DNA from: Phycisphaerales bacterium
GTDB lineage: Bacteria; Planctomycetota; Phycisphaerae; Phycisphaerales; UBA1924
Assembly: GCA_029260555.1 (NCBI GenBank)
Contig: JAJDCZ010000009.1
Location: forward strand, 1-64,000
DNA: 64,000 bases
Direction: 5' to 3'
The position numbers were made by a program, and so were the translations under genes. Position 1 is the first letter of the stretch, and every line of letters begins with the position of its first letter. Below are positions 8,199-64,000 of the stretch, piece after piece. The notes beneath the pieces are model-generated. The model searched no databases, was not told where the DNA came from, and worked only from the letters and a program-made list of their open reading frames with translations.

Positions 8199-8222
8199 CG
8201 CTCCCTTACGGTCGCGGCTTGT
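8199..8222 (+). repeat. 24-base dispersed repeat, copy 1
   Basis: CGCTCCCTTACGGTCGCG followed by GCTTGT. It differs by two bases from copy 2 at 56271. It lies in the 3' spacer between the barrel protein and the convergent cyclophilin gene. It is not a hairpin. Confidence 0.7.
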
Positions 8223-39358: not shown

Positions 39359-39382
39359 ACGAGCCATGACCGTGAGGGAGTG
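39359..39382 (-). repeat. 24-base dispersed repeat, copy 4 (inverted, degenerate)
   Basis: On the plus strand ACGAGCCATGACCGTGAGGG continues with AGTG. This is the reverse complement of the repeat at 56271 with three mismatches. It lies in the spacer upstream of the flagellin gene and downstream of the pseudopilin gene. Confidence 0.55.
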
Positions 39383-39450
39383 ATCCTCGCAATATATTTC
39401 TATGATTTACACACCCATACGGTCACAGCTCATCAATCATGCAACAAAAC

Positions 39451-56270: not shown

Positions 56271-56294
56271 CGCTCCCTCACGGTCGCGGCTCGT
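56271..56294 (+). repeat. 24-base dispersed repeat, copy 2
   Basis: CGCTCCCTCACGGTCGCG followed by GCTCGT. It lies in the convergent spacer between the peptidase and the Fur-family gene. It matches copy 3 with one mismatch, copy 1 with two and the inverted copy 4 with three. Confidence 0.75.
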
Positions 56295-62611: not shown

Positions 62612-64000
62612 ATGATTTCCAAAGACCCACTTCTCACGCTGTTGTTGATGCTTGTGATCATCGAGTTGATCGCATCGGGCGTGTTTTTGTTGGTGCTTGT
62701 GTTGTTTCGCAATCGGCTGTTGATGCTGGGTTGCAGTTGCTGGAAGCTGTTGCGAAAGCTTTGCCGATCACACTATGCATTGCTCGTGACAGGGCTCACC
62801 AGTCTCACCGGAATGATGCTGCTTGTGCTCGCGATCATCAGGCCTGCCATCCCGCGAATACATGATGAGTTTTCGTATCTGCTGGCTTCAGACACCTTTG
62901 CTTCAGGCAGGCTGGCCAATCCGTCGTCATTGCTCTGGCGGTTTTTTGAGACTGAGCATGTGCTGATGATCCCAGCGTATATCTCGAAGTATCCACCGGG
63001 ACAAGGGCTGGTGCTGGCGCTGGGACAGGTGCTGGGTCATCCACTGATCGGCGTGATCCTGAGCACCATGCTTCTGGTGCCTGCAGCGATCTGGATGGCC
63101 CGCGCATGGATGCCTCGACATTGGGCATTTATTTGCGGGCTTCTGGTCGCTACACACCCGGGCATCCTGGCGTGGTGGGGCAACACCTACTGGGGAGGCT
63201 CAGCAGCAGCTCTGGGCGGGATGCTTCTCTTTGGCAGCGTCGCCAGACTGGTCAAAAAACCACTCTGCCCCAGATATTCACTCATCGCGGGCATCGGCCT
63301 GGTGATCCTTGCCAATACCAGGCCGTTTGAAGGGCTCGTAGTGAGTCTTCCCGCAACACTCTGGCTGGGCTGGGGTTGCCTTGTCAAACCGGTCTTGCGA
63401 GCACAATCTCATGGTGCATTGACCCCTGGGCCATGCAACGGGCCTGGGGCAGAATCAAAGACCGCTCCCTCACGGTCGCGACTCGTTTGGGACAATCTCA
63501 ATAAATCAGCCTGGCTGGTTGGGCTTCCTATTATGGCGGTCTTGCTGGTCGCGGGGCTCTGGATGGCGTTATACAACTTTAGAACCACGGGTTCGCCAGC
63601 GACCTTTGCGTATCAGGCTCATGGTGAGCAGTATTCCACAGCACCGACATTTATCTTTGAATCCAAACACGAGCCGCCGCAATACAACAATCGCAAGCTG
63701 GAAGATTTTTATGGCCATTGGGAACGCCGAAAGGCCAAACGATATACAAAAAACCAGCAGATCCTCTCGCGATCGTTTGAAAAACTCATCGTGTACCTGG
63801 GGTTTTACATCTTCCCAGCCATGGCGATTCCGCTGGTGCTGATGTTGATTAAAAAGAAGTTTCAGTTGATAAAAACAATCGACTGGACGCTGGGCTTGAG
63901 AGACGATGCGATTGGTTTTTCACTGGCCACGATTGGCGTTGTGTTGTTGGCATCAGGGTTTGTGATCTGGTTTCACCCGCATTACATCGCGCCCGCGACG
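62612..64000 (+). CDS. GT-C-type membrane glycosyltransferase-like protein (3' partial)
   Basis: An open frame of 463 codons runs from ATG 62612 to the right edge without a stop. The product has many membrane helices and a GT-C-like first loop, IHDEFSYLLASDTFASGRLA, with Asp-Glu at the expected catalytic place, followed by YISKYPPGQGLVLALGQVLG, WWGNTYWGGSAAALGGMLLF and ANTRPFEGLVV. These fit a common bacterial family of ArnT/PMT-like membrane proteins. It lies 38 bases after the family 2 transferase gene, so the two could act together on a lipid-linked sugar. A copy of the 24-base repeat falls inside codons 284-292. Confidence 0.8.
   Translation, partial: MISKDPLLTLLLMLVIIELIASGVFLLVLVLFRNRLLMLGCSCWKLLRKLCRSHYALLVTGLTSLTGMMLLVLAIIRPAIPRIHDEFSYLLASDTFASGRLANPSSLLWRFFETEHVLMIPAYISKYPPGQGLVLALGQVLGHPLIGVILSTMLLVPAAIWMARAWMPRHWAFICGLLVATHPGILAWWGNTYWGGSAAALGGMLLFGSVARLVKKPLCPRYSLIAGIGLVILANTRPFEGLVVSLPATLWLGWGCLVKPVLRAQSHGALTPGPCNGPGAESKTAPSRSRLVWDNLNKSAWLVGLPIMAVLLVAGLWMALYNFRTTGSPATFAYQAHGEQYSTAPTFIFESKHEPPQYNNRKLEDFYGHWERRKAKRYTKNQQILSRSFEKLIVYLGFYIFPAMAIPLVLMLIKKKFQLIKTIDWTLGLRDDAIGFSLATIGVVLLASGFVIWFHPHYIAPAT
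63461..63486 (+). repeat. 24-base dispersed repeat, copy 3, inside a coding region
   Basis: ACCGCTCCCTCACGGTCGCG followed by ACTCGT matches copy 2 with one mismatch over the 24-base core (63463-63486). It is read in frame as TAPSRSRLV in a polar loop of the GT-C-like protein and does not break the gene. Confidence 0.75.

Follow-up and report, generated by a model that had tools for sequence, protein, structure and literature searches.

The window analysed here, a stretch of 64,000 nucleotides at the start of contig JAJDCZ010000009.1 of a Phycisphaerales bacterium, carries a dispersed repeat between and within genes (Table 1). Its core, CGCTCCCTCACGGTCGCG, is matched four times in the window at up to three mismatches, against an expectation of 0.11, and none of 100 shuffles reached four. 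The core is exact at 56271 and 63463, has one mismatch at 8199, and is found inverted with three mismatches at 39365-39382. An earlier note on this DNA had reported the core followed by GCTCGT at 8199, 56271 and 63463. The three cores are there, 8199 with its mismatch, but only the copy at 56271 matches the full 24-mer exactly, the tail reading GCTTGT at 8217 and ACTCGT at 63481. The inverted copy that it placed at 39359 was recovered, as were the gene contexts it described, with two copies between convergent genes, one upstream of flagellin and one in frame; it had overlooked the degenerate partner of the flagellin copy at 39410-39433. The genome-wide count it proposed gave 101 core matches at up to two mismatches in the 3.18 Mb genome and none for a reversed-pattern control, so that its claim of far more copies than chance holds for window and genome alike. 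A text search of the open-licence literature for the motif found no paper on the motif itself.

Table 1. Repeat copies and the open reading frame that reads through one of them, in window coordinates.
Feature	Position	Strand	Remarks
REP copy between convergent genes for a DUF6268 protein and a cyclophilin	8199..8222	+	1 core mismatch; neighbours by Pfam
Left REPIN arm, a REP copy lying upstream of flagellin	39359..39382	-	3 core mismatches
Degenerate right arm of the flagellin-upstream REPIN, CACACCCATACGGTCACAGCTCAT	39410..39433	+	6 mismatches over the 23-nt unit
REP copy between convergent genes for an M28 peptidase and a Fur family regulator	56271..56294	+	exact 24-mer; neighbours by Pfam
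Membrane-protein ORF reading through the 63463 REP copy	62612..64000, continues beyond the window	+	no Pfam match
REP copy GACCGCTCCCTCACGGTCGCGACTCGT	63460..63486	+	exact core, tail 1 mismatch; in frame in the 62612 ORF

The copy at 63463 is translated as TAPSRSRLV, residues 284-292 of the 62612 ORF. Two orthologues were found among 150 genomes of the family, and in both the loop that ends in the REP copy is about 28 residues shorter. Because both lack these loop residues, the copy lies in a lineage-specific insertion, the exact boundaries of which are uncertain. The earlier note had expected residues 284-292 to be an insertion, and the alignment agrees, the segment being conserved in neither orthologue. 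A genome-wide count near chance, or conservation of this segment as protein, would have spoken against its proposal of a mobile unit; neither was found, as the count is far above chance and the segment is unconserved in the two orthologues.

Read on the opposite strand, the repeat unit is ACGAG-CCGCGACCGTNAGGGAGCGG, with the consensus (YNNA)CGAG-CC-R-CGACCGT-V-AGGGAG-Y-GG. This unit is an imperfect hairpin, CC(G)C-GA-CC-GTNA-GG-GA-G(C)GG, with a conserved tandem G.A mismatch. The pairing CCGC-GA-CC-GTNA-GG-GA-GCGG follows from compensatory changes, analysed in units re-gathered from all loci with the position pair 7-22 left free. In distinct units this pair is G-C in 86, C-G in 19, A-T in 11 and G-T in 18, and is unpaired in 12. 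Three Watson-Crick pair types at one position, in several genomes, are hard to obtain without a hairpin. Pairs 5-24, 11-18 and 12-17 also pair above the level of shuffles that preserve column composition, not relatedness, while positions 9.20 and 10.19 are mostly G.A and A.G and form standard pairs less often than expected. Within the window, two of the three core mismatches of the copy at 39359 form a compensated stem pair (CACTCCC..GTCATG). The minimum-energy DNA fold of the unit is the same hairpin, with a folding energy no better than that of shuffled sequences (z -0.4 to -0.8).

Copies lying no more than 150 bp apart are divergent in 17 of 22 cases and never convergent, mostly at a spacing of 44–48 bp, and this inverted-pair layout is the architecture of a REPIN. 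The arms of the flagellin-upstream pair likewise have opposite orientations and lie 45 bp apart, start to start, which is the modal spacing of the genome. Most copies are intergenic; by a rough codon-usage score, about two of 30 sampled copies lie in convincing coding frames, the window copy among them. The 24-base repeat makes up one arm in a family of small non-autonomous elements of the REP/REPIN kind. The family shows the general properties of its kind: short, dispersed, high-copy units, a hairpin, inverted pairs at fixed spacing and a linked RAYT (below). The earlier note held that the core forms no hairpin and in this differs from usual REP elements; this view is contradicted by the tandem-G.A hairpin with its compensatory changes, and the REPIN pairs and their layout around a RAYT transposase also contradict the supposed unlikeness. 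The family resembles the GTAG- and CGTC-tagged REPs (BMC Genomics 2013, PMC3733652), members of which are reported in Planctomycetes, and REPINs in its short high-copy hairpins, inverted pairs and link to a RAYT. It differs from the tagged REPs in its tag, ACGAG, and its internal tandem G.A mismatch; neither the canonical 5′ tag GTAG/GTGG nor CGTC is present, the 5′ flank being YNNA followed by CGAG. Separately, a tandem array of a 72-bp unit, each with one REP copy, was seen at positions 69709-69997 of another contig of the source genome (G000:C30, L021), and other genomes have species-specific variants, CGCTCCCTNCCGGTCGCG (44 matches, G008) and GGCTCCCTNACGGTCGCG (several of 51 matches, G406).

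A PF01797 profile search of the source genome identified a Y1 transposase at C52:116958-117170, flanked by REP copies at 116644 and 116722 on the minus strand and 117292 on the plus strand, in the outward orientation of a REPIN. Its motifs NHVH, WT and YTLEEQ correspond to the HUH, W[TA] and Y....Q signature of the class 3 TnpA_REP-like proteins. The accessible text of the description of that class (BMC Genomics 2018, PMC6006769) presents it as rare and planctomycete-rich, with atypical flanking structures. The RAYT family studied here matches that text in its NHVH, WT and Y....Q motifs, in being planctomycete-rich with acidobacterial and proteobacterial members, and in hairpins that are atypical around the gene and high-copy genome-wide. 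The foot given there is CnGA, and the flank here is YNNA in 43 of 52 and CNGA in 9; the accessible text makes no mention of nesting in host genes. The HxH and tyrosine catalytic residues are invariant in 42 relatives. An AlphaFold2 model of the RAYT domain of a nested relative (pLDDT 86) has as its best fold match 4er8, a RAYT-REP hairpin complex, followed by IS200-type transposases. A sequence search of the PDB with the RAYT profile had given only marginal transposase matches, which the fold search resolved. The source genome also has a second, stand-alone Y1_Tnp gene of another RAYT group (L032:1438-1989; G000:C33:59539-59901) and a weak third match at C22:85524-85901.

In a set of 392 genomes from the phylum, a class 3 RAYT is present in 9 of the 11 genomes with at least ten REPs and in 43 of the other 381 (Fisher p = 3e-7, which is only indicative because related genomes are not independent). 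No class 3 RAYT was found in the remaining two REP-rich genomes, G323 and G328, which are 77–86% complete. REP copy number in related genomes ranges from 0 to 371, and of 47 nested class 3 loci, counted with duplicates, 43 are bracketed by an inverted REP pair of at least 14 bp. The mobiliser of the REPs is probably this class 3 Y1/HUH transposase (RAYT, TnpA_REP-like).

The source-genome RAYT lies in frame inside valS. The 1328-residue ORF (L033:1207-5193, contig C52) is a single open frame with tRNA-synt_1, Y1_Tnp and Anticodon_1 domains and with ValRS sequence on both sides of the RAYT; translation therefore adds the RAYT to valyl-tRNA synthetase as a further domain. The REP copies at its borders are read as NEPRPSGSG and PLPHGRGS. 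Together with the 63463 copy they bear out the suggestion in the earlier note of a small, mobile-looking dispersed unit that can end up in frame. A ValRS search gave a single match in the source genome and likewise one in each nested genome. In the order, no fewer than 21 of 146 ValRS genes have a RAYT inserted in this one linker: class A (class 3) accounts for 12 and the distinct class B for 9. The total is a lower bound, since about half of the linkers were read directly and the rest judged by frame length. The insertion point falls between residues 363 and 376 of Thermus ValRS (1gax); it was taken from a sequence alignment. The full-length ValRS-RAYT model was mediocre (pLDDT 64, pTM 0.49), so domain packing is not claimed. 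In this linker the chain passes back from the editing domain into the catalytic core. ValRS and AlaRS proteins of nested relatives, one each, pass the curated valS and alaS models; for the source genome a partial ORF was scanned. Two valS peculiarities were seen in passing: an extra in-frame REP copy (RAATVRERS) within the RAYT domain, directly before WTRHGSTRYLN, in L249 (G481 valS) and in L165, and some 70 additional residues matching neither RAYT class in the linker of G049 (L138).

Two distinct RAYT classes recur at the same valS site, arising repeatedly among relatives. Four species of genus g40 have, respectively, a class A RAYT, a class A RAYT at only 50% identity (ValRS flanks 79%), a class B RAYT and a linker with no RAYT, and ValRS linkers of genus g313 are likewise A, B and empty. 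This mixture within genera points to turnover rather than simple descent. In G498 and G039 the class B inserts have hairpins with a GTGG tag, a likeness to GTAG/GTGG REPs within the same ValRS linker. On a RAYT tree of 158 columns the ValRS-nested members cluster (5 label changes against 16 when shuffled); the tree is weakly supported and compatible with one or several origins of class 3 nesting in ValRS.

Nesting extends to other host genes. Class 3 RAYTs with in-frame REP borders occur in alaS at three or more sites, and in DUF1156 genes of bins labelled Planctomycetota, Chloroflexota and Deltaproteobacteria. One AlaRS ORF from a Phycisphaerae bin (L176:1203-6260) holds two in-frame class 3 RAYT domains at different sites, and the BREX-2 pglX gene, encoding a defence methylase, of the single-contig genome G342 (L066) has an in-frame class 3 RAYT insert with REP borders. 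No Pfam intein splicing domain was found in the nested ORFs.

These observations are very probably explained as a whole by a REP/REPIN family with a class 3 RAYT nested in valS as its probable mobiliser. The repeat might instead be a conserved protein-binding or regulatory site that does not move, such as a nucleoid, replication or transcription motif, as its high sequence conservation and the positions of the window copies, two where convergent genes meet and one ahead of flagellin, would allow. Such a site would hardly covary in both arms as a hairpin, pair as REPINs around a transposase, vary from 0 to 371 copies between related genomes or be read in frame within ValRS, AlaRS and further proteins, and we regard this as very improbable. 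That the cassette is an ordinary IS200/IS605-type insertion sequence, with the repeats as its ends and the dispersed copies as remnants, is unlikely in a lesser degree. An inverted REP pair does bracket the RAYT gene, class 3 is described as resembling both insertion sequences and REPtrons (accessible text of PMC6006769), and the class A domain scores slightly higher with the IS200 model NF033573 (38.7 bits) than with the class 2 RAYT model REP_Tyr_transpos, NF047646 (30.6 bits). Both scores miss their curated cut-offs, of 55 and 80 respectively, while class B (G039) passes the latter at 92.6. The cassette has no tnpB, about 100 short copies stand against one cognate transposase gene, and the fold is matched best by 4er8, a REP transposase.

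A RAYT within an essential synthetase could also be a domesticated fusion, its nuclease fold serving the enzyme in tRNA or nucleic-acid binding or in regulation and not acting on REPs. Nested RAYTs have a low dN/dS (0.08–0.3, with dS mostly saturated), retain their catalytic residues and, when in ValRS, cluster on the tree. Yet a RAYT is present in just ~14% of ValRS genes and within one genus is replaced by the other class or absent, and these natural empty-linker relatives already point to ValRS activity being unaffected by removal of the insert. The same RAYTs occur in AlaRS, DUF1156 proteins and PglX; REP copies always lie nearby, and their number tracks the RAYT. Domestication is thus an improbable account. 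Most of the genomes are metagenome assemblies, in which assembly or binning could join a RAYT contig to valS, but the frame stays open across both junctions in every case and the same site is used in independent genomes, including the single-contig G412, G454 and G460 (and G342 for pglX), so that we give an artefact practically no weight.

With a REP/REPIN family mobilised by a nested RAYT, the REPINs would be non-autonomous and depend on the class 3 RAYT, whose own copy would be an inverted REP pair enclosing the transposase frame. Either as part of ValRS or once released, the RAYT domain may recognise the hairpin together with the 5′ flank when the DNA is single-stranded, as in the lagging-strand template, and copy or move REPINs. 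Only one of the six frames of the REP consensus meets a stop (TGA or TAA), at a variable loop base, and is open if that base is C; with so few stops, insertions of suitable length can be read through. The few in-frame copies tolerated in loops, such as that at 63463, would then persist. A RAYT in an essential gene is hard to lose because imprecise removal would kill the host; only precise in-frame removal would be viable, and residence there may shield the RAYT.

Inteins with homing endonucleases are selfish enzymes hosted in frame in conserved essential genes, and the nested RAYTs are like them in this respect. They differ in that no Pfam splicing domain was found and in that the insert sits in a variable linker, not in an active-site motif. 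The Rickettsia palindromic elements (PMC10969869) offer an analogy, not a membership: these ~150 bp elements of Rickettsia are in-frame palindromes in unrelated protein genes, for which that paper names no transposase of their own. Here, element size differs and the mobiliser gene itself lies in frame in essential genes. We found no description of a RAYT or transposase nested in ValRS, AlaRS or another aminoacyl-tRNA synthetase in the open-licence literature, outside which most subscription journals fall. REPs, REPINs, RAYTs, class 3 proteins and in-frame Rickettsia palindromes are already known.

Some planctomycete valine--tRNA ligase entries hide a transposase domain, and the peptides PLPHGRGS, SRDREGA and EPRPSGSG recur in these proteins because they are translated REPs. 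More broadly, we see an even chance that different classes of RAYT-REP cassette settle again and again, in frame, in those linkers of aminoacyl-tRNA synthetases and large methylases that tolerate them, the host gene acting as refuge and expression vehicle, in a splicing-free counterpart of inteins that sustains genome-wide REPIN populations. A RAYT carried in frame by a sole valS or alaS gene offers a concrete account, open to testing, of how the single-copy RAYTs on which REPIN populations depend may persist. Natural within-genus series of class A, class B and empty linkers are at hand.
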